Below are positions 3,312-20,719 of a stretch of 49,175 bases of DNA, one piece after another. The position numbers and the translations under genes are program-made. A model generated the notes under the pieces. The model saw only the letters and a program-made list of their open reading frames with translations. It was not told where the DNA came from and ran no database searches. Position 1 is the first letter of the stretch, and each line of letters opens with the position of its first letter. The DNA comes from Acidimicrobiales bacterium (GTDB lineage: Bacteria; Actinomycetota; Acidimicrobiia; Acidimicrobiales; Acidimicrobilacustridaceae). The stretch is from assembly GCA_026419545.1 (NCBI GenBank), contig JANZZE010000002.1, positions 1 to 49,175 of the forward strand. The letters run 5' to 3'.

Positions 3312-4639
3312 GCGGTCGGGTGAGTGTCGTCGGGCTCGGGCCCGGCCGGGCTGATTGGTGTATTCCCGAGGTCACGGAGCGTTTGCACCAAGCGACCCAT
3401 CTCGTCGGGTACCGCCCCTATCTTGCGATGGTGCCGCCAACCGTGACTGGTGAGCGACGCCCATCAGGGAACCGGGTCGAAGCCGAACGTGCCACGGAAG
3501 CGCTCGACCTCGCGGCCGCCGGCGGTGACGTGGTCGTGGTCTCGTCGGGGGACCCAGGCGTGTTCGCCATGGCAGCTGCCGTCATCGAACAACTCGACGC
3601 TCACCCCGGCCGGTGGGACGACGTCGAGGTCGAAGTCCTGCCGGGGGTCACCGCAGCGCTCGCGCTTGCTGCCCGTGCGGGCGCGCCGCTCGGCCATGAC
3701 TTCTGTGTCATCTCGTTGTCGGACGTATTGAAGCCGTGGTCGGTCATCGAGCGCCGGCTCGACGCCGCAGCTGGCGCCGACTTCGTGCTCGCGTTGTACA
3801 ACCCCCGTTCTCGTCACCGACCGCATCAACTCGCAGACGCGCTCGCCATCATCGCTCGGCATCGCAAACCGGAGACCGTGGTCGTGGTCGGCCGCAACGT
3901 CGGACGCCCCGGTGAGTCGGTCACGGTCACGACCCTCGGAGAACTGGATCCGACCCAGGTCGACATGTCGACCCTGCTCCTCATCGGTTCGACGACGACC
4001 CGCACGGTGGCACGACCTGGCCGACCGGACCTCGTGTACACCCCGCGACGAGTCCTGCACGCGCAACGCGACGTCCACGATGATCGGGGTGCCGTCCCAA
4101 CCGGCTTCTGGCTACTGACGGGAGGTGCACGGTCAGGCAAGAGCGCTGCGGCGGAACAGCTCGCAGCTCGGAGTGGCCGACCGGTGTATGTCATAGCAAC
4201 TGCCGAACCAGTCGACGACGACCTCATGGCGCGCATCGCCTGTCACCGGGCCGCCAGGCCGCAGTCGTGGGTCACGATCGAAGCGCCGCTCGACCTCGTC
4301 GGCGCGGTGGCGCAAGTCCCGGGCGACGCGTGTTTGGTGCTCGACTGTGTCACCGTATGGCTCGGCAACCTCTTCCATCACCGTGGTGAGGACGCCCAGG
4401 GAGCCGATGACGCGGCAGTTGCGCTCGCTTCGGCGCTTGCCGCTCGCTCGGGGCCGTCCTTCGTGGTCACCAACGAAGTCGGGCTCGGGATCGTTCCTGA
4501 CACGGCGCTGGGTCGCCGCTACCGCGACACCCTCGGTCGTGTGAACGCGACGCTGGCACAGGCCGCTGCCCGTGTCCTGTTTCTGTCCGCAGGACGAGCG
4601 GTGGAACTCGGCGCCATCACTGAGCTCGTAGGACGGTGA
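3308..4639 (+). CDS. cobJ: CobJ-CobU fusion: precorrin-3B C17-methyltransferase + adenosylcobinamide kinase/guanylyltransferase
   Basis: One 443-aa frame holds two enzymes. Residues 1-245 are a corrin methyltransferase of CobJ type: VVGLGPGRADW, VVSSGDPGVFAMA, EVLPGVTAALA, FVLALYNPRS and VVVVGRNVGRPGE. It catalyses ring contraction and C17 methylation. After a linker, residues 265-443 are CobU/CobP: P-loop TGGARSGKS at 271-279, His313 in ACHRAARPQSW (the guanylylated His in the family), LDCVTVWLGNL and VTNEVGLGIVP. This half phosphorylates and guanylylates adenosylcobinamide, a step many reactions later. No stop or frameshift lies between the halves. The start overlaps the cobI stop and the end is 10 bp before the next gene. 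Both assignments are firm. Confidence 0.9.
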   Translation: MSGRVSVVGLGPGRADWCIPEVTERLHQATHLVGYRPYLAMVPPTVTGERRPSGNRVEAERATEALDLAAAGGDVVVVSSGDPGVFAMAAAVIEQLDAHPGRWDDVEVEVLPGVTAALALAARAGAPLGHDFCVISLSDVLKPWSVIERRLDAAAGADFVLALYNPRSRHRPHQLADALAIIARHRKPETVVVVGRNVGRPGESVTVTTLGELDPTQVDMSTLLLIGSTTTRTVARPGRPDLVYTPRRVLHAQRDVHDDRGAVPTGFWLLTGGARSGKSAAAEQLAARSGRPVYVIATAEPVDDDLMARIACHRAARPQSWVTIEAPLDLVGAVAQVPGDACLVLDCVTVWLGNLFHHRGEDAQGADDAAVALASALAARSGPSFVVTNEVGLGIVPDTALGRRYRDTLGRVNATLAQAAARVLFLSAGRAVELGAITELVGR

Positions 4640-4649
4640 CATAGGTGGC

Positions 4650-6557
4650 ATGGCGGTGACCGCAAACGAGGAAGGATTCGTTGCCGAGGCAACCGAGCAG
4701 CGTGGTGCCGCGAGCACCTATGCCCGACCGATCCCTCTCATCGGTGACCGGACGACAGCACTCGAGCGGCGCGCCGATCCGGCTGGGTGGGCCTTGAACG
4801 ATGACGAGATCGAAGTCCTCGACCGTACGATCCGGGCCCGACGCGACATCCGGCGCTTCCGGCCCGACGATGTGGCACCGGAACTGGTGCGCGAAGTGCT
4901 CGTCGCCGCCCACAACGCGCCGTCGGTCGGGCTCAGCCAACCCTGGCGGTTTGTGATCGTGCGCGATCTCGCGACCCGCCAAGCCGCGGCCGCGATGGCT
5001 GATCGGAACCGGCTGCGGCAAGCCGCGATGCTCGACCCGGAGTCCGCGCGTCAACTGCTTGCACTCCAACTCGAGGGTCTGCGCGAAGCGCCAGTCGGCA
5101 TCGTCGTCGGTTGCGACCGACGCGCCCCAGCTGCGGGTGTGCTCGGTCGGGCGACGATGCCTGATGCTGACCTGTGGTCTTGTGCTTGTGCGATCCAGAA
5201 TCTCTGGCTCGCAGCGCGGGCGAGAGGGCTTGGCGTGGGTTGGGTGACGTTGTTCGAACCCGCGGAGCTCGCCGCGTTGGTGGGTTTCCCCGAAGGGGTC
5301 GTGCCGCTCGGCTGGTTGTGTCTCGGCTATCCCGATGAGCGCCCACCGGCTCCAGGTCTCGAACGGCGTGGCTGGTCGTCGCGGCTCGGGCTCGACGAGG
5401 TGGTCATGCACGAGCGTTGGCCCGAGCAACGAGAAGTGCTGCCACCGGTGTCGCGTCTGGCGGAGCGCCCGCCAACGGAGGGGACCGACCGTCCCGACAC
5501 AAGCGGTGTCGCCGACCGTCGCAAGCTGACAGTGACGTCGCGTACGCCGACCGAGGTTCGCGACCGTCGCGACGATCATCTGGCGCCCCCGGACGGACTC
5601 GGTCTGCTCGACCAGCAACTCGACCGGGTCGAACGGTTCGTCAGCGCCGACGATCCCCGCGCCGCTGGCGGCGGGGCGCTCGTCGTCGCGATTGGTGACC
5701 ATCCTGTCGCTGACCTAGGAGTGACTGCGTATTCCCGATCGGTAACCGCCGAACTGCTGCGAGCGTCGCTTGCCGGTGAATCGATCGGTGCTCGCATCGC
5801 CCAGGTGTGTGGGCTGCGCTTCGAATGCGTCGATGCCGGGGTCGCGAGCGGTGACCTCGTGACGACCGACGCCCTGACGGAGGCAGCGGCATCGCAGCTC
5901 GTCGACCGAGGCCGAGAGCTCGGCCGCGAGCTAGCGGTCCATGGGCTCGTCGGGGTCGGCGAAGCCGGTGTTGGCAACACGACGATCGCGGCGGCGTTGG
6001 CGGTCGCGATCGGTGGCCTGGCGGTTGAGGAGGCGGTCGGGCTCGGAGCAGGCAGCGACAGTTCGATCGTGGCGACCAAACGCTGGGTGGTGGAACAAGC
6101 GACCGCTCGCGTGGGCCGACGCGATGCGATGGGCCTGTTGTGTGGGCTCGGTGGCCCCGAGATCGCGGTCCTCGTCGGCGTGATCCTCGGCGTGGTCGAT
6201 AGTGCCGCCGTCGCGGTGCTCGACGGGATGGTCACCACCGCCGCTGCGCTGGTGGCAGTCGAACTCCATCCGGGTGCGGTCGAGCACCTGGTGGCCGGGC
6301 AGCGCAGCAACGAACGGGGGCATGCTCGGTTGCTGCGCGACCTCGGCCTCGAATCACTGCTCGACTGGCGCCTCCGGTCGGGCGAGGGCGTAGGTGCTGC
6401 CGTCGCCACGAGGCTGTTGCTCGACGGGCTGCGCCTGCGGCAACTCGCGCCACGGACCGCTCGTTGCGCCGACGGTAGCGCCGAGCCTCGACCCGGGACA
6501 GGACACTGGACCGTCGGCGACAACGCGCCAGACGAACCGCAGCCACGCAGTAGCTGA
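4650..6557 (+). CDS. bluB: BluB-CobT fusion: DMB synthase + nicotinate-nucleotide:DMB phosphoribosyltransferase
   Basis: This 635-aa protein is a second fusion in the operon. About residues 50-270 are a nitroreductase-fold BluB with RARRDIRRF (FMN phosphate binding), NAPSVGLSQPWRFV and GVGWVTLFEP. BluB cannibalises FMNH2 with O2 to make 5,6-dimethylbenzimidazole. After a charged linker, about residues 320-610 resemble CobT: LGVTAYSRS, VGVGEAGVGNTT (family GEMGIGNTT), a degenerate GAGSDSSIVATKR block and SGEGVGAAVA with the conserved catalytic Glu. CobT activates the base to alpha-ribazole phosphate, so the fusion couples lower-ligand synthesis to its activation. The CobT half is slightly short (about 300 versus 350 aa). 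ATG 4650 has an AGGTGG just upstream. Confidence 0.88.
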   Translation: MAVTANEEGFVAEATEQRGAASTYARPIPLIGDRTTALERRADPAGWALNDDEIEVLDRTIRARRDIRRFRPDDVAPELVREVLVAAHNAPSVGLSQPWRFVIVRDLATRQAAAAMADRNRLRQAAMLDPESARQLLALQLEGLREAPVGIVVGCDRRAPAAGVLGRATMPDADLWSCACAIQNLWLAARARGLGVGWVTLFEPAELAALVGFPEGVVPLGWLCLGYPDERPPAPGLERRGWSSRLGLDEVVMHERWPEQREVLPPVSRLAERPPTEGTDRPDTSGVADRRKLTVTSRTPTEVRDRRDDHLAPPDGLGLLDQQLDRVERFVSADDPRAAGGGALVVAIGDHPVADLGVTAYSRSVTAELLRASLAGESIGARIAQVCGLRFECVDAGVASGDLVTTDALTEAAASQLVDRGRELGRELAVHGLVGVGEAGVGNTTIAAALAVAIGGLAVEEAVGLGAGSDSSIVATKRWVVEQATARVGRRDAMGLLCGLGGPEIAVLVGVILGVVDSAAVAVLDGMVTTAAALVAVELHPGAVEHLVAGQRSNERGHARLLRDLGLESLLDWRLRSGEGVGAAVATRLLLDGLRLRQLAPRTARCADGSAEPRPGTGHWTVGDNAPDEPQPRSS

Positions 6558-6715: not shown

Positions 6716-7114
6716 ATGAGCTTTCTTTCCTTCGCCGGTCGCGCGCGTGCAGCGGCCCTTGTGATCGTCTGCACGGTTCATTTGGTGCTTGTCAGCTGCG
6801 GTGGGGAGTCGAAAGACTCGCAGGCCGAGCATCCGGGACAACGAGTGGCCGAGTCGAAAGGCTGCTTGTCGTGTCACTCGGTTGACGGTTCTCGCCGGGC
6901 AGGCCCCACCTGGCAAGGGCTGTTCGGCGCAGAGGTGAAGCTCACCGATGGAACCACAGTCGTGGCAGACGACGACTATTTGGCCCGAGCTATCAGTTCG
7001 CCGGGAACCGAGATCGTGGCTGGCTACCCGAATGCCATGCCCACGGTTTCGCTCACTGATCAGGAGCGCCAGGAGGTGATCGACTACATCAAGTCGTTGG
7101 GAGGTGACCGTTGA
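6716..7114 (+). CDS. Lipoprotein cytochrome c (single haem)
   Basis: The protein has 132 aa. A hydrophobic N-terminus ends in the lipobox LVSC (Cys28), so it should be a membrane-anchored extracytoplasmic lipoprotein. One haem c motif CLSCH lies at 50-54, followed by GPTWQGL and a likely distal Met108 in YPNAMPT. It resembles the mobile cytochrome c domain found at the end of some CuA oxidase subunits. It probably shuttles electrons to a terminal oxidase. It is first in a run with redox and copper chaperones; its TGA overlaps the TTG start of the next gene. Confidence 0.85.
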   Translation: MSFLSFAGRARAAALVIVCTVHLVLVSCGGESKDSQAEHPGQRVAESKGCLSCHSVDGSRRAGPTWQGLFGAEVKLTDGTTVVADDDYLARAISSPGTEIVAGYPNAMPTVSLTDQERQEVIDYIKSLGGDR

Positions 7115-7653
7115 CGCCGAGGGCGTTGTCTGGGGCGCACTCAGCCTTCGTCGGGTGCTTGGTTCTCGCCAGCGTGATCGCTACGGGCTGCGCCGCGTCA
7201 AGCGCACCGTCGGCGAGCAACAACGGGCTGGTGCTTCCCGATGTCGACGTCGTCGTCTTGGACACCGGTGCGACGGTGCAGCTTCGTGACCTCGTACGCA
7301 AACCAACGCTTCTGAACCTCTGGGCCTCGTATTGCACGCCATGCCGAACGGAAATGCCCATGCTCGAGGCGTTCAGCCAGCAGCACCTCGGTGAAATCGC
7401 GGTGATCGGCGTCACCGATGATCCAGTGTTGGACAAGGCCCGTGAGATCGCGTCCGAGACCGGTGTCACTTATCCGTTGTTCCAGGACGAGGCAGGTGTG
7501 CTCCTGCGGGAATTGCGGGTCAGTTCCTTGCCGGCCACCTACTTGCTCTCAGCGACCGGTCGGGTCGTGTGGTCGAAGGTCGGCGTCCTCAGCGACGCCG
7601 ACCTCGAGTCCGTTGTCAAAACGATCGGGGAGTCACCCAATGTGTCCAGTTGA
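7111..7653 (+). CDS. TlpA/ResA-type thioredoxin-like lipoprotein
   Basis: The 180-aa frame starts with TTG at 7111, overlapping the cytochrome stop by 4 bp. A signal segment ends in the lipobox ATGC (Cys27). The thioredoxin fold carries WASYCTPC at 71-78 and a cis-Pro loop SSLPATYLL. Such proteins reduce extracytoplasmic Cys pairs in apocytochrome c or in the CuA site of cytochrome oxidase. The neighbours (cytochrome c, SCO, PCuAC) fit either role. It could also be called a peroxiredoxin-like AhpC/TSA protein, but the CxxC favours TlpA. Confidence 0.85.
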   Translation: MTPRALSGAHSAFVGCLVLASVIATGCAASSAPSASNNGLVLPDVDVVVLDTGATVQLRDLVRKPTLLNLWASYCTPCRTEMPMLEAFSQQHLGEIAVIGVTDDPVLDKAREIASETGVTYPLFQDEAGVLLRELRVSSLPATYLLSATGRVVWSKVGVLSDADLESVVKTIGESPNVSS

Positions 7654-7662
7654 AGATCGGCC

Positions 7663-8364
7663 ATGGTGATGTTCAGTGCTGCTTGTGATCGTGGGCCTAC
7701 CCGAAGCGGGCGGAACGGGCGTCGGTCGTTGGCCGCCATCGTTCTTGTCACCGTGTTTGTGGTCTCCTGTGGTGGGACCGCCCGCCAGAACGGTTCCATT
7801 GGCGGCTCATCAACCACTGCCACCGAAGCAGCCAACCGGCTGAGCGGAATCGTGCGCCAACAACCACTCGACGTCTTCGATGTGTCGGTAACCGACGCAA
7901 GGACCGGACAGACCATGCCGGTCGCGCCGCCAGCCGGAGAACTCCGACTCGTGTATTTCGGCTATACGAGTTGCCCAGACGTCTGTCCAACCACTTTGGC
8001 TGATGTTCGCCGGGCGTTGCGGACATTGCCAGCCGACGAATCGGGAAAGGTTTCGTTGCTGTTCGTGTCGGTGGACCCAGAGCGTGACACCGCCGAGATT
8101 CTCGACGGCTATGTCTCGTCGTTCGTGACCCCCAATTACCTCGTTCGATTGGAGGATCCCGACGCGCTTGCACAGCTCGAGTCGCGGTTTGGGGCTCGAT
8201 CCGAGCTCGGCCCCCGTCATGAGGACGGGAGTTATGAGGTCGCCCACACCGCACTGCTCTATGCCGTCGACCCGGCAGGGAAGGTCGTGGTCGAGTGGCC
8301 GTTCGGCACGCCGTCCGACGCAATCGCGTCGGATCTGAAGATCTTGTTCAGCCAACTGACGTGA
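7663..8364 (+). CDS. SCO1/SenC copper chaperone lipoprotein
   Basis: The protein has 233 aa, with a signal segment ending in VVSC (lipobox Cys36). The SCO fold has the copper-binding CPDVC (Cys104, Cys108) within FGYTSCPDVCPTTLAD, VDPERDT, and the distal His195 in VAHTALLY. All three copper ligands are therefore present. It should hold Cu on the outer face of the membrane and pass it to the CuA centre of cytochrome oxidase subunit II. It follows the TlpA-like gene by 9 bp and precedes another copper chaperone. Confidence 0.9.
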   Translation: MVMFSAACDRGPTRSGRNGRRSLAAIVLVTVFVVSCGGTARQNGSIGGSSTTATEAANRLSGIVRQQPLDVFDVSVTDARTGQTMPVAPPAGELRLVYFGYTSCPDVCPTTLADVRRALRTLPADESGKVSLLFVSVDPERDTAEILDGYVSSFVTPNYLVRLEDPDALAQLESRFGARSELGPRHEDGSYEVAHTALLYAVDPAGKVVVEWPFGTPSDAIASDLKILFSQLT

Positions 8365-8412
8365 CGCGTCACTTGGTCAATCAACCAAGCAGATGGAGGA
8401 GACAGAACCAAC

Positions 8413-9060
8413 ATGATCCGGAACAAGCGTATTGCCGTGGCATTCGTGGCGGTGTCGCTGGGAGCAGCGACCGCAGCGTGTTCATCTGGTAACAAGCAAG
8501 AAGCCGCGACGAGTGGGACATCGGCGGTTCCAGCGACGACGGCGGCTCGGACCGGTACGACCGTGGCAACCGGCATCGAGGTCACCGATGCCTGGGCCAG
8601 GACCAGTCCGATGAACGCCAAGAACGGTGCCGTCTACATGAAGCTGACGTCGGCGGGCGAGGACAGGCTGGTCGGCGCCTCGGTTGCGCCGACCATCGCA
8701 GCCAAGGTTGAGCTGCACGAGACCGTCATGGCTGATATGAGTGGTTCCTCGACGACCATGGGAATGGGGGCTGACACCTCTACGACCATGGGCATGATGG
8801 CCGAGAACACCTCGAGCACCATGGGGATGGGGAGCTCGATGAACGAAGGCGAGGGTGCAGGTGGCTCGACCATGCAGATGAAACCGGTCGATGCCATCGA
8901 GCTCCCGGCCGGGAAGACAGTGGAGTTGAAGCCGGGTGGCTTGCACGTGATGCTCATCGATCTGACCAAACCCCTTGAGACGGGTTCATCGTTCGAGCTC
9001 ACGTTGCGGTTCGAGAAAGCTGGCACCAAGACGGTGACTGTCACGGTCAAAGAGGGCTAG
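8413..9060 (+). CDS. PCuAC-type copper chaperone with Met-rich insert
   Basis: This is a 215-aa lipoprotein (TAAC lipobox, Cys23). The PCuAC (DUF461) core has VTDAWARTSP, NGAVYMKLTS, His102/Met106 in LHETVM, MKPVDAIELPAGKTVEL and His178/Met180 in GGLHVMLIDL. These are the usual Cu(I) His/Met ligands. Between the first ligand pair and the MKPV strand there is an extra loop (about 107-153) with three copies of a TMGM-type unit, giving 12 Met between 106 and 156. This looks like a multi-copper Cu(I)-binding extension. A GGAGGA lies upstream of the ATG, and a small hairpin (CTTGGT/ACCAAG, 8372-8389) precedes it. It probably delivers Cu to CuA together with SCO. Confidence 0.87.
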   Translation: MIRNKRIAVAFVAVSLGAATAACSSGNKQEAATSGTSAVPATTAARTGTTVATGIEVTDAWARTSPMNAKNGAVYMKLTSAGEDRLVGASVAPTIAAKVELHETVMADMSGSSTTMGMGADTSTTMGMMAENTSSTMGMGSSMNEGEGAGGSTMQMKPVDAIELPAGKTVELKPGGLHVMLIDLTKPLETGSSFELTLRFEKAGTKTVTVTVKEG

Positions 9061-10435: not shown

Positions 10436-10463
10436 TTTGCCTTCGCCCGCATCGTGGTATAGG
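10436..10463 (+). promoter_or_regulatory. Putative promoter of the B12-riboswitch operon
   Basis: TTTGCC (10436-10441) and TATAGG (10458-10463) are separated by 16 bp, directly before the riboswitch aptamer. The -10 is good and the -35 is poor, so this is plausible only by position. Confidence 0.4.
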
Positions 10464-10465
10464 GT

Positions 10466-10626
10466 GCGCCACGCAACGTACGGGAATCCGGTGTGAATCC
10501 GGAGCGGTCCTCGCCACTGTGACAGGGGAGCGACCACTCAATTCGCCACTGGGCTGCGGCCTGGGAAGGCGAGTGGTGGCGATGATCCTGGAGCCAGGAG
10601 ACCGGTTGCGAGTCAGGTCCACGAGA
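10466..10626 (+). promoter_or_regulatory. Cobalamin (adenosylcobalamin) riboswitch
   Basis: The conserved blocks of the B12 aptamer appear in order. These are GGGAATCCGGTGTGAATCC near 10481, the GCCACTGTGA core near 10515, a GCC...GGGAAGGCG arm near 10558-10570, and the B12 box AGCCAGGAGACC at 10592-10603. It lies just ahead of cbtB. It should lower expression of the cobalt-uptake genes, and perhaps of the coupled genes down to cobO, when cobalamin is plentiful. No strong terminator hairpin is seen, so control may be by sequestering the cbtB ribosome-binding site. Confidence 0.93.
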
Positions 10627-10842: not shown

Positions 10843-11604
10843 ATGGATCACATCAAGGCGTTCCTTTGGCGCGGGGCGCTCGCAGGAGTCATCGCTGGTG
10901 GGGTTGCGTCGCTCTTCCAATTGACGGTCACTGAACGCGAGATCCGGGCTGCACTCGCGTTCGAGGAGGTCCCGCTTCACGACCACGGGGCGCACCACGC
11001 GGCCGAGGAGATGTTCAGTCGATCGACGCAAGTGGTCGGGGGCATGTTGGCCGTCGTGCTCTATGGGTTGTGCCTCGGTGTCGTCTTCGCCTTCGCACTC
11101 GCGTTAGTTGCGCGACGCATTGACGGTGCCACGTGGTTTGCCCGGGCGATCAAGCTAGCGGCACTGCTGTTCGTAGGTTGGGTACTGATTCCCCAACTCA
11201 AGTACCCGGCAAATCCACCGGCTGTCGGCGATCCGGAGACGGTCGGCCAACGAACTGCGTCCTATGGTGCGCTGCTCGTGATCGGTCTGGTCGTCGTGTT
11301 CGGCGCGCTGTGGCTGTGGCATTGGGCGAGCGAACGCGGTCTTGAAGAGATCACGCGGTTCGTTGTTGTCGCCGGAGTCGCTATCGCCGCCGTCGGGGTT
11401 GCGTACGTGGTGCTTCCGGCTGCACCCGACCAGAACGCCCTGCCCGCCGATCTGATTTGGCGGTTCCGCGTCGAATCACTGGCCACCAACGCGATCTTGT
11501 GGATCGGGATCGCAACGGGGTTCGGATGGCTTGCGCGGGGCCGAGCCGACAGGCAGGTCGATGCGCCGGTCGACATCACTGCGCCAATCTCAAGCATCAC
11601 ATGA
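10843..11604 (+). CDS. cbtA: Cobalt transporter subunit CbtA
   Basis: CbtA (253 aa) is a polytopic membrane protein with about five or six hydrophobic helices. Its N-terminal region is LWRGALAGVIAGGVASLFQ, and a His-rich loop HDHGAHHAAEE after the first helix resembles the cobalt-binding loops of the family. Together with CbtB it is predicted to import Co2+ for corrin synthesis. The ATG follows a GGGAG at good spacing. The stop overlaps a short downstream ORF. Confidence 0.9.
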   Translation: MDHIKAFLWRGALAGVIAGGVASLFQLTVTEREIRAALAFEEVPLHDHGAHHAAEEMFSRSTQVVGGMLAVVLYGLCLGVVFAFALALVARRIDGATWFARAIKLAALLFVGWVLIPQLKYPANPPAVGDPETVGQRTASYGALLVIGLVVVFGALWLWHWASERGLEEITRFVVVAGVAIAAVGVAYVVLPAAPDQNALPADLIWRFRVESLATNAILWIGIATGFGWLARGRADRQVDAPVDITAPISSIT

Positions 11605-11711
11605 GCAGCGGCGGGACCGCACTGTCCGCTCGAGGAAGTCCAGCCGCGCAAGCCGTGTTGGTGATGTTGCTTGTTGGGGCCGGTATCGCGCCGCGTGTGA
11701 CGATGTCATGA
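11601..11711 (+). CDS. Possible 36-aa membrane peptide coupled to cbtA and cobQ
   Basis: A short frame begins with an ATG that overlaps the cbtA stop (ATGA at 11601). It ends with a TGA overlapping the cobQ ATG (ATGA at 11708), so it bridges the gap exactly with a 4-bp overlap at each end. The product has one hydrophobic stretch, AVLVMLLVGAGIA, flanked by polar ends. I do not recognise a family. It may be a real small membrane protein of the cobalt system, or a frame that merely keeps ribosomes moving between the flanking genes. Confidence 0.35.
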   Translation: MSSGGTALSARGSPAAQAVLVMLLVGAGIAPRVTMS

Positions 11712-13225
11712 GCGCATCGGTGCTTGCCGGCGGATTGATGGTGTGCGGCACTACGTCGGATGCCGGCAAGAGCACGCTGGTCGCCGGGTTGTGCCGTTGG
11801 CTGTACCGTCGTGGCGTGCGGGTAGCGCCGTTCAAGGCGCAGAACATGTCCCTCAACGCGGCGGTCACTCCCAGCGGAGGTGAGATCGGGCGGGCGCAGG
11901 CTTTTCAGGCGTTTGCCGCGGGTGTGGCACCAGAGGTGACCATGAACCCGGTGTTGTTGAAACCGGTTGGGGAACGGACCTGTCAGGTGGTCGTGAACGG
12001 CCGGCCGTGGCGGGTGACGTCCGCGGCTGGCTATCACGAGCTCAAAGACGAGCTGTTTCCTGAGGTGGTCGCTGCGTATCGGTCACTTCGCTCCCGGTTC
12101 GACGTGGTGATCTGCGAAGGAGCGGGGAGCCCAGCTGAGATCAACTTGTTTGATCGCGACATCGTGAACCTGCGGCTCGCCGATGCCGTCGGAATCGCCG
12201 CAGTGCTCGTCGGTGACATCAATCCAGGTGGTGTGTTCGCCTCGTTGTATGGGACGGTCGGGCTGTTGCCTCCTGAATGGTCACGCCTGGTGCGTGGATT
12301 CGTGATCAACAAGCTCCGCGGCGATCCAGAGTTGCTGCTCGACGGTTGTGCAAAACTCGAGGGGCTGACCGGTGTGCCGGCCCTCGGTGTGCTGCCGTGG
12401 CTCGAGACCGTATGGCTCGACGCCGAGGATTCGATGAGCATCGATCGGCCGTTGCCCGAGCCACGCCCTGCGCTCGCCGACGAACTCGATGTTGCGGTGA
12501 TCCGCCTGCCACGGATCGCCAATGCGACCGATCTGGATGCTTTGCGCATCGAACCCGGGGTGCGTCTGCGCTGGGTCCATGACGCAGCTGGGTTCGGTCG
12601 GCCGGACTTGGTGATCCTGCCTGGATCGAAATCGACCGTCAACGATCTCGCGTGGCTCCGCACGCGAAAGCTCGACACGGCACTTGCGTCGACCGATGCG
12701 ACGGTGCTCGGCATCTGCGCGGGCTATCAGATGTTGGGCCACTCGATCGATGACCGAGTGGAGTCGGCAAGCGGTTTGGTAAAGGGACTCGGGTTCTTGC
12801 CGGTTGACACTGTCTTCGGCCCCGAGAAAGTGACGCGGCTCCGCACGGGTCACGCCGACGGGGCCCGGGTGTCGGGCTATCAGATCCACCACGGCCGGGT
12901 GCGCCAAACTGGAGGTGATCCGTTCGTCGTGTTCGACGACAGTGACCCAGCTGAGCTCGACGGGGTTCGCGCTGGTCGGTTTGTGGGGACGACCCTGCAT
13001 GGGCTGTTCGATGCTGACGAGTTCCGCCGGAACTTTCTCGGTCAGGTCGCCGCGAGCCGGGGCAAGCGTTGGTACAGCGATGGTCCGAGTCTCGAAGCGC
13101 TGCGAACAGCCGCTGTCGATTCGCTTGCCGACGTCCTCGAGGAACGCCTCGATCTCGATGCGGTGGAGCAATTGATCGCGTGGTCCGACGCTGGCGCGGC
13201 AACCGCTCCGGGAGGGATGCGATGA
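11708..13225 (+). CDS. cobQ: Cobyric acid synthase
   Basis: CobQ/CbiP (505 aa) amidates the b, d, e and g side chains. The N-terminal ATPase domain has GTTSDAGKSTLVAGL and KAQNMSLNAAVT, and later CEGAGSPAEINL and GDINPGGVFAS. The C-terminal class-I glutaminase domain has the nucleophile Cys in GICAGYQMLG and the His in TTLHGLFD. The frame is open further upstream, but ATG 11708 starts right before MVCGTTSDAGKS and gives normal length. Both flanks show ATGA overlaps. Confidence 0.93.
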   Translation: MSASVLAGGLMVCGTTSDAGKSTLVAGLCRWLYRRGVRVAPFKAQNMSLNAAVTPSGGEIGRAQAFQAFAAGVAPEVTMNPVLLKPVGERTCQVVVNGRPWRVTSAAGYHELKDELFPEVVAAYRSLRSRFDVVICEGAGSPAEINLFDRDIVNLRLADAVGIAAVLVGDINPGGVFASLYGTVGLLPPEWSRLVRGFVINKLRGDPELLLDGCAKLEGLTGVPALGVLPWLETVWLDAEDSMSIDRPLPEPRPALADELDVAVIRLPRIANATDLDALRIEPGVRLRWVHDAAGFGRPDLVILPGSKSTVNDLAWLRTRKLDTALASTDATVLGICAGYQMLGHSIDDRVESASGLVKGLGFLPVDTVFGPEKVTRLRTGHADGARVSGYQIHHGRVRQTGGDPFVVFDDSDPAELDGVRAGRFVGTTLHGLFDADEFRRNFLGQVAASRGKRWYSDGPSLEALRTAAVDSLADVLEERLDLDAVEQLIAWSDAGAATAPGGMR

Positions 13226-14010
13226 GTGCTGCGAGTGCCTCCTTTGACGAGATTGTGGCCACCGTGCAATCCCGAGCTCCGTACCTTCGTTGTGCCCACC
13301 TAGATCCCGGCCTGATCGACGACGGCTGGATCCGGGTTTCGGACCTGCTCGGAAATGACAGCCTGCTCGAGTCGCACATCGCTTCGACCGGTGACGCGCG
13401 CGGTGCGCCGGATGCGGCAGTCGCGGCGTCCCTGTTTGTTCAAGCGTTCGCGTTCCGCGTGCCGAGCATGGCAGTGGCGGCGTGGGCACTCGGGTTGCCA
13501 TCGACCACGCTGGAGCCGGACCAGCTGGTGATGCGGATCACCCGCAACCGTCCGGGCGAAGTTGGGGTGTTGTCGACGAGCACTCGATCTCACGATGCCG
13601 GGTCGCTCGCGGCCGCGGTCGTCGACGGCTTGATCGAGCCACTGGTTTGCGCGGTGCGGCGCAAGATCAAGGTCGGCGAACGGTTGCTTTATGGAAACAC
13701 CGTCTCGTCGTTGGCGGTGGTGTTCCGAGCCATGCAGTCCAACGGCCCCGCCGGCGACCGCATGGTGCGTGACCGCGGCGAGCAGATGCTGACGGCACAC
13801 CCTCGCCTGCGCCGGCTCGGTCGGTGGCAGTTGCTCGAGACTCCGGGTGCGATCGGGTGGTACTGGGACCGTGGCAACTGTTGCCTGTGGTACCGGACCG
13901 CTGAAGCGGCGGGCCGGTACTGCGAGGATTGCAGCCTCGTCGACCCGGTCGAGCGTGAGAAGCGACGGCGAGTCGAACTGGCGGCAGGCGCGGGCGCGGC
14001 CGACCGATGA
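13222..14010 (+). CDS. FhuF-like (2Fe-2S) protein within the cobaltochelatase operon
   Basis: This 262-aa protein has a C-terminal motif Cys220-Cys221, Cys234 and Cys237 (CC-x12-C-x2-C). It is close to the CC-x10-C-x2-C pattern that binds the 2Fe-2S cluster in FhuF-type ferric-siderophore reductases. The rest of the protein resembles the FhuF/IucA-C-terminal fold, with R-rich stretches and GRWQLLETPG. It is coupled to cobQ and cobN by ATGA overlaps at both ends, so it is probably part of cobalamin synthesis rather than siderophore use. A role as an electron donor or Co(II) reductase is inference. Real siderophore reduction remains the alternative. Confidence 0.7.
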   Translation: MSAASASFDEIVATVQSRAPYLRCAHLDPGLIDDGWIRVSDLLGNDSLLESHIASTGDARGAPDAAVAASLFVQAFAFRVPSMAVAAWALGLPSTTLEPDQLVMRITRNRPGEVGVLSTSTRSHDAGSLAAAVVDGLIEPLVCAVRRKIKVGERLLYGNTVSSLAVVFRAMQSNGPAGDRMVRDRGEQMLTAHPRLRRLGRWQLLETPGAIGWYWDRGNCCLWYRTAEAAGRYCEDCSLVDPVEREKRRRVELAAGAGAADR

Positions 14011-17000
14011 TTCTTTACGTCACCAACGTCGACACTGAGATCCTGGCCTTACGGGTCGCGATCGAATCGTTACCAGCGGGGTTCGCTGTGGTACGGGCGA
14101 AACAACCATGGAACTTCGATGCGACCCGTGATCTCGATGGCGCTCGCTGTGTGCTGGTGCGGCTGTTGCGGGGCCGTCGTGCTTGGGAAGACGGCTTCGA
14201 CTCGCTGCGCGCTCACTGTGTCCATGCCGGGATACCGTTTCTCGCGTTCGGAGGCGAGGCCGTCCCCGACGCAGAGTTGGCGGCGCTCTCGACGGTGCCC
14301 GCTTCGATCCACACCGAGGCGTTCCGTTACTTGGTCCAGGGAGGGCCGGTCAACTTCGCGAATCTGCTCCGGTTCGTCGCCGACACCGTGCTGTTCGAAG
14401 GCTTTGGGTTCGAGCCGCCGACCGAGGTGCCCGAGCACGGTATCTGGTACGAGACGTCCGGATTTGGAGGCTTGCGTCCGCGGATCGGTGTCGTGTTCTA
14501 TCGAGCTCACCTGGTCGCCGGGAACACCCAGTTTGTCGCCGACTTGTGTGGCGAGCTCGAACGGCGGGGCGCCAACGTGGTTGCCCTCTGGTGCTATTCG
14601 CTGCGGGGCGAAGCGGGCGCACCAGTGCTCGAGATGCTTCGCGAACGGGGCGTTGAGGTCCTCGTCACGACCGTGCTCGCATCCGGTGGGTCGGCCGCTG
14701 GGGCAGGCATCGCCGGTGGCGCTGGAGGTCTCGACGGCGACGAGTGGGACGCCTCGGCCCTAGCAGCCCTCGACATCCCGATCATCCAAGCGCCTTCCTC
14801 AGGCCAGTCATCGCAGGAGTGGTTGGACAGTCCGGCGGGTCTCGGGCCCTATGACGCCACGTCCGGGATCGCTATCCCCGAGTTCGACGGTCGGATCATC
14901 GGCCCGACCTTCGCGTTCAATGAACTGGTCGACGACGGCGACGACCTCGGGAACGAGGTGCATGCGTATCGCACCGTTGGCGACCGAGTAGCGCGCGTTG
15001 CTGGGCTGGCGTTGCGTTACGCCCGCCTCCGTCGCACACCGCCGGCTGAGCGCAAGATTGCGCTGGTGTTGTCGGCCTACCCGACCAAGCGGAGTCGGTT
15101 GGGCAACGCAGTAGGACTCGACACACCGGCATCGGCGATTCGGATCATCGACGCGCTGATCGACGCTGGTTATCGGGTTACGCGTAGGCCAGCGAGTGGC
15201 GACGCGCTGATGGCTGAACTTGCCGACGGTCTCACCTACGAGGCTGAAGCGCTCACACCGAAGCAACTCGCTATCGCGGTCGGCGGGCTCGATGTCGAGT
15301 CGTATCGTTCGTGGTTTGCCACACTGCCCGACGATGCCCGAACAGAGATCGAGCGGGTTTGGGGTCCCCCCCCGGGCCGCCAGCGGGTTCACGACGGCAA
15401 GCTGATGTTCAGCGGGGTCGATCTCGGTAACGTGATCGTTGCGATCCAACCCCCTCGGGGCTACGGCGATGATCCGGTTGCGGTGTATCACTCGCCGAAC
15501 TTGCCGCCGGCTCACCACTATCTCGCCTTCTACCGGTGGCTCGACGAGATGTGGGGCGCCGATGCGATCGTCCATCTCGGCAAACACGGAACGCTTGAAT
15601 GGTTACCCGGCAAGCCGCTTGCCTTGTCGGCCTCGTGTTGGCCTGACGCCGCGCTCGGTGACGTCCCGTTCTTCTATCCGTTCGTGGTGAACGACCCCGG
15701 GGAGGGCAGCCAAGCCAAACGCCGAGCCCACGCGGTGGTCATCGATCACTTGTTGCCACCGATGACTCGGGCCGACACCTACGACGAGTTGGCTGAGATC
15801 GAGCAGCTCTTCGACGAATACAGTCAGATCCAGAGCCTCGACCCCGCGAAGCTGCCGGCGTTGCGCAGCAAGATCTGGCAGACCTTGACCGACGCTTCGA
15901 TCGATCGTGATCTGGGTCTTGATGCGCAACCGGACGGCGATGAGTTCGACGACGTCATCGCCAGCGTCGACGGCTATCTGTGTGGCCTGAAGGACGCGCA
16001 GATCCGGGGCGGCCTCCATGTGCTCGGTGAACCCCCGAGCGGTACGGCATTGATCGAACTCGTCCTCGCCATCACCCGGCTCGGCCATGGTCGGATCCCA
16101 TCATTGCGGGACACCGTCGCAGCCGAACTTGGTGTCGATCGCCACGACCCGTTGGCACTCGATGCGATCGAGGCTCGCGCTCGGGCGATGGTCGAGGCAG
16201 CAGCGGCTCGTGGTTGGCATCCCGACGTTGACGAACCGCCGGTGTTGCAGTGGGTGTGCTCGTGGCTCGTACCGAACTTGCTGCGTGCCACTGATGAGAT
16301 CACCAACCTGTTGGCGGGACTCGACGGTCGGTACGTGCCTGCCGGTCCGAGTGGGACCCTCACCCGCGGCGGTGCCCATGTTTTGCCGACCGGACGGAAC
16401 TTCTATTCACTTGACCCCAAAGCGCTCCCATCGCAGCTGTCGTGGGATGTCGGTGTCCGGCTTGCCGATGCACTTCTCGAGCGCCATCTCGCTGAGACCG
16501 GGAGCTATCCGCGATCGGTGGGGTTGGTGCTGTGGGGAACGGCGCTGATGCGCACCCAAGGCGACGATGTTTCCGAAGCGTTGGCACTGTTGGGCATCCG
16601 GCCGGTGTGGGAAGCCGAATCGCGCCGCGTGGTCGGGCTCGAACCGATTCCCCTCGACGAACTCGGTCGGCCCCGCATCGACGTCACGTTGCGGATCAGT
16701 GGCTTCTTTCGCGACGCGTTCCCGAACTTGGTCCATCTCGTTGACGACGCGGTGCGTCTGGCCGCGTCGCTCGACGAGGATCCGGACGACAACTATGTCC
16801 GGGCCCATGGCGCCGACGATCCCCGCATTTACGGACCAACTCCTGGCGCGTACGGCGTCGGTCTGCTCAGCGCGCTCGAGCAGCGGTCATGGAGAGACGA
16901 TCGTGACCTCGCGGAGATCTATCTGGTGTGGTCGGGTTATAGCTACGGCCGCCATGGTTTTGGCGTTCCTGACCGAGCAGCGATGGAGCGCCGGTTTGCG

Positions 17001-17537
17001 CTCATCGATGTCGCGGTGAAGAACCAGGACAACCGGGAACACGACATCTTCGATTCCGATGACTATTTCCAGGATCACGGCGGCATGATCGCAACGATCC
17101 GTTCTTTAACCGGGGCTGACCCGCGAGCGTGGTTTGGTGATTCGTCCGATCCGTCTCGACCTGTGGTGCGGTCGCTTGCCGAGGAAGCGGCCCGTGTTGT
17201 TCGCACCCGTGTCATCAACCCTCGTTGGATCGAGGCGATGCAGCGGCACGGCTACAAGGGTGCCGCCGAGATGGCTGCGACAGTCGACTTCTTGTTCGGT
17301 TACGACGCGACCGCTCGGGTTGTCGATGACTGGATGTATGAAAAGGTCACCGCGGCTTACGTTGCTGATCCCGGCGTGCGCAAGTTTTTTGGTGAGTCGA
17401 ACCCCTGGGCGTTGCGTTCGATCGCGGAGCGGCTGCTTGAAGCATGGGAGCGGGGCATGTGGAGCGCGTCGGACGAATCACTCGAAGTCTTGCGACATGC
17501 CGTGCTCGAAGCCGAAGGGTGGGAGGAGCAGCGGTGA
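14007..17537 (+). CDS. cobN: Cobaltochelatase large subunit CobN
   Basis: CobN (1176 aa) is the porphyrin/corrin-binding H-subunit that inserts Co2+ into hydrogenobyrinic acid a,c-diamide at the expense of ATP. Family blocks are IALVLSAYPTKRSRLGNAVG, VHLGKHGTLEWLPGK, FVVNDPGEGSQAKRRAHA, REHDIFDSDDYFQDHGGM and NPRWIEAMQRHGYKGAAEM. Length is normal to slightly short. It overlaps the 2Fe-2S protein and the chelatase ATPase subunit by 4 bp each. CobN implies late (aerobic-route) cobalt insertion. Confidence 0.93.
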   Translation: MILYVTNVDTEILALRVAIESLPAGFAVVRAKQPWNFDATRDLDGARCVLVRLLRGRRAWEDGFDSLRAHCVHAGIPFLAFGGEAVPDAELAALSTVPASIHTEAFRYLVQGGPVNFANLLRFVADTVLFEGFGFEPPTEVPEHGIWYETSGFGGLRPRIGVVFYRAHLVAGNTQFVADLCGELERRGANVVALWCYSLRGEAGAPVLEMLRERGVEVLVTTVLASGGSAAGAGIAGGAGGLDGDEWDASALAALDIPIIQAPSSGQSSQEWLDSPAGLGPYDATSGIAIPEFDGRIIGPTFAFNELVDDGDDLGNEVHAYRTVGDRVARVAGLALRYARLRRTPPAERKIALVLSAYPTKRSRLGNAVGLDTPASAIRIIDALIDAGYRVTRRPASGDALMAELADGLTYEAEALTPKQLAIAVGGLDVESYRSWFATLPDDARTEIERVWGPPPGRQRVHDGKLMFSGVDLGNVIVAIQPPRGYGDDPVAVYHSPNLPPAHHYLAFYRWLDEMWGADAIVHLGKHGTLEWLPGKPLALSASCWPDAALGDVPFFYPFVVNDPGEGSQAKRRAHAVVIDHLLPPMTRADTYDELAEIEQLFDEYSQIQSLDPAKLPALRSKIWQTLTDASIDRDLGLDAQPDGDEFDDVIASVDGYLCGLKDAQIRGGLHVLGEPPSGTALIELVLAITRLGHGRIPSLRDTVAAELGVDRHDPLALDAIEARARAMVEAAAARGWHPDVDEPPVLQWVCSWLVPNLLRATDEITNLLAGLDGRYVPAGPSGTLTRGGAHVLPTGRNFYSLDPKALPSQLSWDVGVRLADALLERHLAETGSYPRSVGLVLWGTALMRTQGDDVSEALALLGIRPVWEAESRRVVGLEPIPLDELGRPRIDVTLRISGFFRDAFPNLVHLVDDAVRLAASLDEDPDDNYVRAHGADDPRIYGPTPGAYGVGLLSALEQRSWRDDRDLAEIYLVWSGYSYGRHGFGVPDRAAMERRFALIDVAVKNQDNREHDIFDSDDYFQDHGGMIATIRSLTGADPRAWFGDSSDPSRPVVRSLAEEAARVVRTRVINPRWIEAMQRHGYKGAAEMAATVDFLFGYDATARVVDDWMYEKVTAAYVADPGVRKFFGESNPWALRSIAERLLEAWERGMWSASDESLEVLRHAVLEAEGWEEQR

Positions 17538-19456
17538 CCCAGCGCCTCCCCTTTGCCGCGGTTGTCGGTCAGGAGGCGGCCAAGCGAGCCTTGTTGCTCG
17601 CCGCAGTGGAACCGTTGCTGGGCGGTGTGTTGTTGCGGGGCGACAAGGGTTCTGCCAAGACAACCCTGGCCCGGGGGCTCGCGGAGCTTTTGCCTGGTGA
17701 TGCGCCGTTCGTAGAGCTCCCATTGGGGGCCAGTGAGGACCGGGTGCTCGGCTCGCTGGATCTCACCGAGTTGCTGGCCAATGCGCAGCCCGTGTTCCGG
17801 CCGGGCTTGTTGTCGGCAGCGCATAGTGGAGTCCTGTATGTCGACGAGATCAACTTGCTCGCCGACCATCTGGTCGATGCGCTGCTGGATGTCGCAGTAT
17901 CGGGGATCAATCGGGTCGAGCGTGACGGGGTCTCGCACACCCATCCGGCGCGCTTTGTGCTTGTTGCGTCGATGAACCCGGAGGAGGGTGAACTACGGCC
18001 CCAGCTGCTCGACCGGTTCGGGCTTGCTGTCGATGTCCAGGCGCCGGCCGATGTTGCATCGCGGGTCGAGGCGGTCCGTCGCCAACTCGCAGCTGACTGG
18101 TCAGCTGTTGCCGATGGCTACGACGCTTTGACCGAGGACTTCCGGGCCCAGATCGGACGGGCCCGTGATCTGGGCGTGGCGGTACCTGACCACGTGCTTC
18201 AGGTCGCGAGCGCGCTTGCGCTCGAGGTTGGTGCCGAGGGCCTGCGCGCCGACCTGATGTTGGTTCGCGCAGCACGGGCGAATGCGGCGCTTGATGGCCG
18301 GGACCGCGTGACAACAGACGACGTGCGCCGAGTCGCTGCGCTCGTCCTGGCGCATCGCCGTAGGCGGCGCCCGTTCGATACGCCTGGTATCGAGCAGGAG
18401 GAACTCGACGACGCGTTCGCCCGCGCTCTGGCTACAGATCCGTTGAACGCGAATGGCAAAGCGTCTTATGAGCCCGGTGCTGCCGGTGGTCGACCTCGAG
18501 ATCGCACGGCTCTGGCCTCCGCCTTGGATGGTGCGGGTTCTGGTGACGCCAGCGCTGGTGACGGATCTACGACAGCCCCGAGGCCGGAGCCAGGGTCAGA
18601 CTCCGGTCCGGCGCAAGGGCTGAGCAACGGTGGCTCCGCTCCGGTTGACCGTCTCGATCGTGCATCGGAGGGCCTCGCTGGTCATCTCACGCTGCCGCAG
18701 GTGACGACGGTGGGGCAGCGCGGGCTGAGCGGTCGTGGCGTGACAGTTGATAGCCACCGTGGCCGGAAGATCCGGGCTTCTACTACCGACGTTGGCCCAG
18801 CTGACCCGTTGGCCTCGGCGATCGCGCTGGCTTCTCGGCGCGCGGTCCACGGTGATCCCTCGGCTCATCCCCAACCGGACGATCTGCGCACCGTTGTCAG
18901 GGAACAGCAGAGCGCAACGCTGATCGTCTTCGCGCTTGACGCATCGGGCTCGATGGGCGTCGAACACCGTATGGCCGTCACCAAGGCCGCGGTCTTGGGG
19001 CTGCTCACCGATGCGTACCGGCGCCGCTGCCGAGTCGCGGTTGTTACGTTCCGCGATGACGAGGCAGTGACGGTGTTGCGGCCGACCGGTTCAGTCGAAG
19101 TGGCCAGGGCTCGGCTCGAAGAACTCCGCACTGGAGGGACATCTCCCATCGCGGCGGGACTTCGGGAGGCGGCGAGATTGGTCGATGCCTCGGCGCGCGG
19201 ACAGCACGCCGTGATCGTGCTCGTCACCGATGGACGGGCAACTGGATCCGGGATGGCGTCGCGGGATGCGATCAAGGACGCGATCGACACGGCAGCAGGG
19301 CTCGTGCGACGTGGCATCGGGCTCGTCGTGCTCGACAGCGAGCATGGGCCGGTCCGACTTGGGTTCGCACGCCAGCTCGCGGCTGAATCAGGCGCGACGC
19401 TGCTCGCACTCGACGATCTGGATCCACCATCCGAAGCCGTTGTTCCGCAACGGTGA
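17534..19456 (+). CDS. ChlI/ChlD-type putative cobaltochelatase subunit (AAA+ and VWA)
   Basis: The 640-aa protein begins at GTG 17534, overlapping the cobN stop. The N-terminal AAA+ domain has Walker A GDKGSAKTT, Walker B VLYVDEINLL and VASMNPEEGELRPQLLDRFG. A Gly/Pro/Ser-rich acidic linker (about 310-440) follows, then a C-terminal VWA domain with the MIDAS motif DASGSMG and VTDGRATG. This is a fused I+D subunit of a Mg-chelatase-like complex. In many actinobacteria such a protein replaces CobS and CobT as the ATPase partner of CobN, and the 4-bp coupling to cobN supports that. Mg-chelatase function is unlikely because no bch/chl genes are nearby. Confidence 0.9.
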   Translation: MTQRLPFAAVVGQEAAKRALLLAAVEPLLGGVLLRGDKGSAKTTLARGLAELLPGDAPFVELPLGASEDRVLGSLDLTELLANAQPVFRPGLLSAAHSGVLYVDEINLLADHLVDALLDVAVSGINRVERDGVSHTHPARFVLVASMNPEEGELRPQLLDRFGLAVDVQAPADVASRVEAVRRQLAADWSAVADGYDALTEDFRAQIGRARDLGVAVPDHVLQVASALALEVGAEGLRADLMLVRAARANAALDGRDRVTTDDVRRVAALVLAHRRRRRPFDTPGIEQEELDDAFARALATDPLNANGKASYEPGAAGGRPRDRTALASALDGAGSGDASAGDGSTTAPRPEPGSDSGPAQGLSNGGSAPVDRLDRASEGLAGHLTLPQVTTVGQRGLSGRGVTVDSHRGRKIRASTTDVGPADPLASAIALASRRAVHGDPSAHPQPDDLRTVVREQQSATLIVFALDASGSMGVEHRMAVTKAAVLGLLTDAYRRRCRVAVVTFRDDEAVTVLRPTGSVEVARARLEELRTGGTSPIAAGLREAARLVDASARGQHAVIVLVTDGRATGSGMASRDAIKDAIDTAAGLVRRGIGLVVLDSEHGPVRLGFARQLAAESGATLLALDDLDPPSEAVVPQR

Positions 19457-20055
19457 AACAACACCTGGGAGTCAGGATGCCCGAACGTTCCCCCGACGAC
19501 ATCCCGACCGAGGACCCGCGGCCTGACGGGCTCCGCCGTGTCCCATCCCTCGTTCTCGTCAACACAGGACCGGGAAAAGGGAAGACGTCTGCGGCCATCG
19601 GTGTGGTCGTGCGAGCGGTGGCGCAAGGCTGGCCAGTTGCTGTCGTGCAATTCCTCAAGTCGGGGAAGTGGCGCACCGGCGAGGAGAAGATCTGCCGGCA
19701 ACTCGGTGTCGACTGGTGGGCACAAGGGGAGGGTTTCACCTGGGACTCCGCTGATCTCAGCGTCGACCAAGCGGTCGCTGCTGGGGCATGGCGCCACGCC
19801 CGATCGATCATTACTGGTGGCGAGTACGGCCTCGTCGTGCTCGATGAGATCACGTACCCGATCAACTGGGGATGGATCGACCTCGAGGAGGTCATCGAGA
19901 CGATCAGGACCCGCCCCGAGCGGGTGAACGTCGTGTTGACCGGTCGCAACGCACCCGCTTCGCTGATCGAGATCGCCGACACGGTCTCAGAGATTGCAAA
20001 CGTCAAGCACGCGTACCAATCCGGGATCCGGGCAAAGAAGGGCATCGACTACTGA
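19453..20055 (+). CDS. cobO: Cob(I)yrinic acid a,c-diamide adenosyltransferase
   Basis: CobO/BtuR (200 aa) attaches the 5'-deoxyadenosyl group to Co(I). It has the P-loop NTGPGKGKTSAAIG, QFLKSGKWRTGEE, VVLDEITYPINWGW and NVVLTGRNAP, ending in the typical VKHAYQSGIRAKKGIDY. The first 30 residues are a polar extension. GTG 19453 overlaps the upstream stop. It is the last gene of the riboswitch-headed run, and its last codons and stop are duplicated just downstream (see the 33-bp repeat). Confidence 0.92.
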   Translation: MKQHLGVRMPERSPDDIPTEDPRPDGLRRVPSLVLVNTGPGKGKTSAAIGVVVRAVAQGWPVAVVQFLKSGKWRTGEEKICRQLGVDWWAQGEGFTWDSADLSVDQAVAAGAWRHARSIITGGEYGLVVLDEITYPINWGWIDLEEVIETIRTRPERVNVVLTGRNAPASLIEIADTVSEIANVKHAYQSGIRAKKGIDY

Positions 20056-20108: not shown

Positions 20109-20161
20109 CATCGGTGGCCCGCGCGGGTAGGTCGCCTGAGCTACGAAGGGATTCGATTTTG

Positions 20162-20719
20162 ATGGGAACGCTCTGGTACCTCGCCAATTGTTCCCTGGAT
20201 GGGTTCACCGAGGACGAGTCCGGGTCTTTCGACTGGTCGGCGCCCGACGAAGAGCTGCACCGCTTCTACAACGATCTGATGGCAGGAATCGGGTTCCAGC
20301 TGCTCGGTCGGCGTATGTACGAGACGATGGCGGTGTGGGAGACCGATCCGTCGTTCGTGGCTCTGTCTCCGGTGCTTGCGGAATTCGCCGCGGCCTGGCA
20401 GGACTCCGACAAGATCGTGTATTCGTCGACCTTGACTGAACCCATCACGGCGCGGACCCGGATCTCCTCCAGCTTTGATGTCAGAGAGATCGAATCGCTC
20501 AAAGCATCGACTGCGGCCGATCTCTTGGTGAGCGGTCCCGAGCTGGCGGGCCATGCGTTGCGCGCTGGGCTCGTCGACCGCATTGGCCTCGTACTTGTGC
20601 CGGTGATCATTGGTGGTGGGAAACCAGCGCTTCCTCCTGGTCTGCGTCTCGAGTTGGAGCTTGTGGACCACCGGCGATTCGGTAACGGCTCGGTGTATGT
20701 CGCCTACCGCCCGCGTTGA
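20162..20719 (+). CDS. Dihydrofolate reductase/RibD C-terminal-like protein
   Basis: This 185-aa protein of the RibD_C/YwjB family starts MGTLWYLANCSLDGF, the usual first strand and SLDG motif. It continues with LGRRMYETM, DKIVYSSTL, LLVSGPELAGHALRAGLVD and PVIIGGGKPALP, all family blocks. Such enzymes are small NADPH-binding reductases of mostly unknown substrate. An AAGGG lies about 11 bp before ATG 20162. It stands alone after the cobalamin operon. Confidence 0.8.
   Translation: MGTLWYLANCSLDGFTEDESGSFDWSAPDEELHRFYNDLMAGIGFQLLGRRMYETMAVWETDPSFVALSPVLAEFAAAWQDSDKIVYSSTLTEPITARTRISSSFDVREIESLKASTAADLLVSGPELAGHALRAGLVDRIGLVLVPVIIGGGKPALPPGLRLELELVDHRRFGNGSVYVAYRPR

Follow-up and report, generated by a model that had tools for sequence, protein, structure and literature searches.

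A FhuF-like [2Fe-2S] protein linked to cobalamin genes in Actinobacteria is a candidate corrinoid reductase

Background

What is the function of a FhuF-like protein that is encoded within an operon of cobalamin synthesis? The question is raised by a contig of an Acidimicrobiales bacterium (GCA_026419545.1, JANZZE010000002.1; the stretch of 49,175 nucleotides that was analysed is called the window), on which a gene of this type stands between cobQ and cobN. To our knowledge, the only known role of the FhuF family is the release of iron from siderophores. In the aerobic pathway, cobalt is inserted by CobN, the step that follows is the reduction of Co(II) to Co(I) (PMC7242693), and Co(I) is required for CobO; the reductase known to supply it is a flavoprotein, CobR (PMC7242693, PMC4083273). 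The literature that we searched names no agreed protein for the reduction of cobalt ahead of CobO in Actinobacteria, and searches on FhuF or iron reductase with cobalamin, riboswitch and BtuF found no link between FhuF and B12. A preliminary description of the locus proposed the FhuF-like protein as a candidate corrin reductase, and the analysis below follows up this proposal.

Results

The fhuF-like gene is part of a riboswitch-headed cobalamin operon

The operon of the window consists of a cobalamin riboswitch followed by cbtA, cobQ, the fhuF-like gene, cobN, chlDI and cobO (Table 1). The overlaps of the fhuF-like gene with both neighbours, which the preliminary description had reported, are correct: an ATGA of 4 bp is shared with cobQ (13222-13225) and another with cobN (14007-14010). 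GTGA overlaps are present at the cobN/chlDI and chlDI/cobO junctions, and the GTG start of chlDI was assigned from its overlap with cobN; for cobQ, the longest open reading frame starts at 11531. Pfam and NCBIfam matches identify further B12 genes upstream (CobG-like, cobH, cobI, cobJ-cobU, bluB-cobT and cobK, in addition to cbtA), and judged by gene content this set is that of the aerobic pathway. As the same gene is found in the cob loci of many other genomes, the arrangement is not due to chance.

Table 1. Features of the window operon, with positions in the window
Feature	Position	Strand	Evidence
Cobalamin riboswitch aptamer RF00174, heads the operon	10438..10624	+	106.2 bits, gathering threshold 31.5
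CbtA, probable cobalt transporter subunit	10843..11604	+	PF09490, E 4e-49
CobQ, cobyric acid synthase	11708..13225	+	NF001989 585.6 bits, TIGR00313; start inferred
FhuF-like [2Fe-2S] protein, candidate corrinoid reductase	13222..14010	+	ORF of 262 aa; FhuF fold 7qp5; profile match 7qp5; ATGA overlaps
Cluster motif CC-x12-C-x2-C (Cys220, 221, 234, 237)	13879..13932	+	sequence; alignment on CC-x10-C-x2-C of E. coli FhuF
CobN, cobaltochelatase large subunit	14007..17537	+	TIGR02257 1169 bits
ChlD/ChlI-type chelatase ATPase subunit	17534..19456	+	TIGR02442 best hit, 565.7 bits, below cut-off
CobO, cob(I)yrinic acid a,c-diamide adenosyltransferase	19453..20055	+	PF02572, E 1e-60; NF004637

Several other features of the cluster were observed. 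BluB-CobT (4650-6557) and CobJ-CobU (3308-4639) are apparently fused proteins, a block of thioredoxin-like, SCO1 and PCu(A)C copper-chaperone genes lies amid the cob cluster (7111-9060), and a gene for a RibD_C-domain reductase is found downstream of cobO (20156-20719).

The window protein has the fold of FhuF

On its own, the window protein gives marginal profile scores: PF11575 (FhuF_C) scores 19.1 bits in hmmscan (cut-off 20.5) and 22.4 bits in a profile search of the whole genome, where the window protein is the only match. There is no match to the FhuF domain PF06276, for which two relatives (L018 and L207) are above the cut-off, and the equivalog profile of siderophore-iron reductase FhuF, TIGR03951, is not reached (18.8 bits, cut-off 63.85). 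The assignment is therefore decided by structure. From 26 sequences AlphaFold gave a model (pLDDT 94.2, pTM 0.91) that has E. coli FhuF (7qp5) as its best PDB match (Foldseek E 9e-6; VIA Z 19.2, 219 residues aligned, rmsd 3.1), followed by siderophore (NIS) synthetases with lower Z and partial overlap. The family profile also matches 7qp5 (E 2e-8), and in this match the cysteines are aligned. By its model, the window protein thus belongs to the FhuF fold, and both fold and profile agree with the original FhuF-like assignment.

The CC-x12-C-x2-C motif described earlier is present as C220 C221 - x12 - C234 - x2 - C237. The four cysteines are invariant in 26 aligned relatives, together with Arg79 and Arg217, and are probably the ligands of a predicted [2Fe-2S] cluster; the spacing between the two pairs ranges from x9 to x16 among these relatives. 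Residue 137 (13630-13632) is Leu in the window protein and His in 25 of the 26 aligned rows. The flavin-reductase domain PF01613 is not among the Pfam hits of the window protein, which has the FhuF fold instead, and neither a flavin nor an NADH domain was recognised. The likeness to E. coli FhuF (7qp5; PMC8068687) extends over the 219 aligned residues and includes the four-cysteine ligand pattern that opens with vicinal cysteines; the differences are an identity of only about 16%, a spacing of x10 in the E. coli protein versus x12, an operon of cob rather than siderophore genes and a substrate that is probably a corrinoid.

Linkage to cobN is kept through several gene orders

To gather relatives, the order, the class and the phylum were searched and 85,000 species genomes were scanned; a contig scan with the window protein alone as query found nothing, and a scan seeded by an alignment was successful. 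In 19 of the 24 tree rows from cobN loci the fhuF-like gene is immediately upstream of cobN, and in 16 of these 19 a cobN start codon overlaps its stop by 4 bp. The preceding gene is cobQ, cbtA or cobO, or else the gene leads the operon behind a riboswitch. The orders read are cobQ-fhuF-cobN (window, L025, L037, L039, L040, L042, L044, L045, L202), cbtA-fhuF-cobN (L016, L020, L029, L032, L038), cobO-fhuF-cobN (L034, L036), riboswitch-fhuF-cobN-chlDI (L201, L206), cobN-chlDI-fhuF-cbtA (L024) and cobQ-fhuF at a contig end or apart from cobN (L015, L043), indicating that the linkage of fhuF to cob genes was kept through rearrangement. The riboswitch at L206 is of the AdoCbl-II type, and the genome (G661, 94% complete) has only two TP_methylase genes; from its gene content, this organism may insert cobalt into metal-free corrinoids that it scavenges.

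In a sample of 198 genomes of the order, relatives (E < 1e-3) are present in 13 and CobN in 67. CobN is found in 7 of the 13 genomes with the fhuF-like gene, compared with 67 of 198 overall; this correlation is not strong and the case therefore rests on physical linkage. Sixty of the 67 cobN-bearing genomes have no match to the FhuF-like protein. In the FhuF-less cobN loci of the order, cobQ runs straight into cobN in 27 of the 32 that were read (with a simple gene caller), so that the fhuF-like gene looks like an insertion into an older cobQ-cobN pair. Neither a flavin reductase nor any other candidate replacement recurs in the FhuF-less cobN loci that were read. The FhuF-like protein is thus optional and not indispensable.

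Relatives occur in corrinoid salvagers and in B12 importer operons

The expectation that orthologues always sit in cobN operons does not hold: some are found with cobB, cobQ and cbiZ or with a BtuF-like gene, and a few elsewhere. Five draft genomes with relatives (G795, G860, G116, G147 and G350; completeness 92-97%) have CobO, no match to CobN and only two to three TP_methylase genes each, too few for synthesis of the corrin ring. CbiX has no match in the first four of these drafts; G350 has CbiX-family proteins, which, judged by family, could be sirohaem chelatases. In G795 and G860 the fhuF-like gene is between cobB and cobQ, in a locus that also contains bluB-cobT, cobD/C-like, cobS and cobU genes, a CbiZ/CbiS-like hydrolase gene and cobO. 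In G116 and G147 it follows a BtuF-like gene and is beside cobB; this BtuF assignment is weak (26.6 bits, partly from inspection of the sequence). In G350, which is outside the class, a cobalamin riboswitch is followed by fhuF, cobB (4-bp overlap) and cobO. Where CobN and CbiX are missing, the gene cannot serve cobalt insertion, yet reduction of cobalt is still needed for CobO.

A further setting is import. In G358, also outside the class, a riboswitch is followed by genes for a BtuF-like protein, a FecCD permease and an ATPase and then by fhuF; G566 and G269 have the same order, with the genes touching. In G503, which is of the same genus and has a PPE-like gene and is thus probably a mycobacterium, the riboswitch, the BtuF-like gene and the FecCD gene are followed by a gene for a single ATPase-FhuF fusion protein (L196, 8111-9865; 585 aa, ABC_tran 31-177, FhuF_C 549-569). 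In G289 a riboswitch is directly upstream of fhuF. Other FhuF loci (e.g. L026, L131, L194, L197, L199 and L240-L245) have no cobalamin riboswitch and may encode ordinary siderophore FhuF.

Exceptions and phylogeny

A few relatives are outside cob loci (L203-L205, L017 and L022). Those of L203, L204 and L205 (genomes G692, G764 and G746, with CobO and no match to CobN) are beside ImuB/DnaE2-like genes; the idea that these large neighbours are B12 enzymes was rejected, as on inspection they resemble polymerase genes of the ImuB/DnaE2 type. Likewise, coupling of a FhuF of G400 to a B12-dependent ribonucleotide reductase was considered and rejected, as the pair is NrdA-like plus a class I beta subunit; as evidence for a corrinoid link this locus is weak. 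Within the group of relatives to which the window gene belongs, siderophore genes are not the main setting, a possibility that the preliminary description had raised.

In a first tree, 34 rows formed a group (support 90/85) of 23 rows from cobN loci, six salvage or BtuF-like rows and five others. When nine sequences were added, the 34-row group was not recovered as one clade, and a single origin of the corrinoid-linked rows is thus not supported. The riboswitch-linked rows are scattered and require at least five changes, indicating that either recruitment or loss was repeated.

The source genome has one Flavin_Reduct protein, which is not beside cob genes and has 1wgb as its nearest match, with the CobR chain (3cb0/4ira) fifteenth. 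By best hit it is not CobR-like, which answers the earlier question of a genuine cobR elsewhere in the genome to the extent that a 91% complete assembly permits: absence of CobR is not proven.

Discussion

The idea of a corrin reductase gains support from the salvagers that lack CobN and from the orders riboswitch-fhuF-cobB-cobO and riboswitch-btuFCD-fhuF, loci that the preliminary description did not cover. It is quite likely that the FhuF-like protein acts on corrinoids in some redox role, and on balance probable, from gene context, that it reduces corrin cobalt, with the Co(I) step preferred. The window protein would then probably combine a known fold with a new class of substrate or a new role. 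Because of the CobN-less salvagers and the riboswitch contexts, we favour an electron donor to corrinoid cobalt over a partner of the chelatase or a siderophore reductase.

We propose that an electron-transfer protein of the FhuF family has switched from ferric siderophores to corrinoids and that its cluster hands single electrons to the corrin-bound cobalt. The product of CobN, cob(II)yrinic acid a,c-diamide, would most likely be reduced to the Co(I) form, either free or on CobO, and then adenosylated by CobO before CobQ acts; in salvaging relatives, the same reduction would act on imported or remodelled corrinoids, and Co(III) may also be taken to Co(II). Every context would be accounted for: the reduction would follow CobN in producers, precede CobO in salvagers and come after uptake where the gene goes with import. 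Substrate, redox step and electron source are what we infer here. E. coli FhuF acts on metal chelates by transfer of one electron and has a potential of -0.36 V at pH 7.4 (PMC8068687), and the free Co(II)/Co(I) couple, at about -450 mV, is below it (PMC4083273), so that the Co(I) step would need the help of the adenosyltransferase, which by holding the corrinoid four-coordinate would ease the reduction. A recent study of M. smegmatis argues that a dedicated cobalt reductase enzyme is unnecessary (PMC8088520), which counts against the proposal. Further points against it are the many cobN-bearing genomes that lack the gene, the relatives outside cob loci, Leu137 of the window protein and the failure of the corrinoid-linked rows to form one clade in the larger tree.

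The main variant of the proposal is a reduction of Co(III) to Co(II). If this were the role of the protein in place of the Co(I) step, it would remove or reduce the upper ligand of corrinoids in the manner of CblC, which is thermodynamically easier for a cluster of -0.36 V (PMC8068687) and fits both the btuFCD-fhuF import operons and the ATPase fusion. We consider this unlikely, if the best placed of the alternatives, since the commonest position, before cobN, and the order fhuF-cobB-cobO point to biosynthetic adenosylation via Co(II) to Co(I), which is also the step that follows insertion in the aerobic pathway (PMC7242693).

Unlikely as well, and next in line, is a protein that serves cobalt itself and, alongside CbtA, provides CobN with Co(II) by reducing Co(III), whether free or bound to a siderophore. 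The nearest neighbours in many loci are indeed cobN and cbtA, and metal chelates are substrates of FhuF (PMC8068687), but where a genome has a match to neither CobN nor CbiX, relatives are still found beside cobB, cobQ, cbiZ, cobO or a BtuF-like gene, and their partners under cobalamin riboswitches elsewhere are btuFCD or cobB-cobO.

The window also encodes CobG-like and BluB-CobT proteins, both of which require electrons, and the FhuF-like protein could donate electrons to CobG or another redox enzyme of the B12 pathway, or provide reduced flavin for BluB. This is improbable: the gene is coupled to cobQ and cobN and to neither cobG nor bluB, in G350 it is coupled to cobB-cobO, and in the salvagers that have it, the methylase genes do not suffice to build the ring. 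That it is an ordinary ferric-siderophore reductase in an incidental position, as fold and motif might suggest, is very improbable, given that no siderophore genes were recognised around the window gene, that the linkage to cob genes recurs across many genomes, gene orders and cobalamin riboswitches, and that the TIGR03951 score is far below its cut-off.

Iron-sulphur clusters are also a feature of PduS, which is RnfC-like with FMN. Corrin reduction, the role proposed here, is what PduS performs for the pdu microcompartment (PMC2982820), and it differs from the window protein in its unrelated family and its physiological setting. CobR of Brucella reduces Co(II) to Co(I) ahead of CobO (PMC4083273), which for the window protein is a proposal only, and is an FAD protein of the flavin-reductase fold, whereas the window protein is an iron-sulphur protein of the FhuF fold. 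Importers of the BtuFCD type are known from mycobacteria (homologues of MSMEG_4560-4558), and in several Actinobacteria a FhuF gene or a fused FhuF domain closes the riboswitch-led btuF-C-D operon; the part of the mycobacterial work consulted mentions no FhuF component (PMC8088520), and the window operon is biosynthetic.

We give an even chance to the wider reading that [2Fe-2S] proteins of the FhuF family are general, hitherto unrecognised corrinoid reductases of Actinobacteria that were recruited more than once: ahead of cobN in de novo producers, alongside cobB-cobO or cbiZ in salvagers, and at the end of riboswitch-controlled operons for B12 import, either as a separate gene or as a fused domain. 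If true, a corrinoid reductase of the FhuF type would give the reduction step ahead of CobO a gene in Actinobacteria, and the range of FhuF would extend from iron to cobalt chelates.
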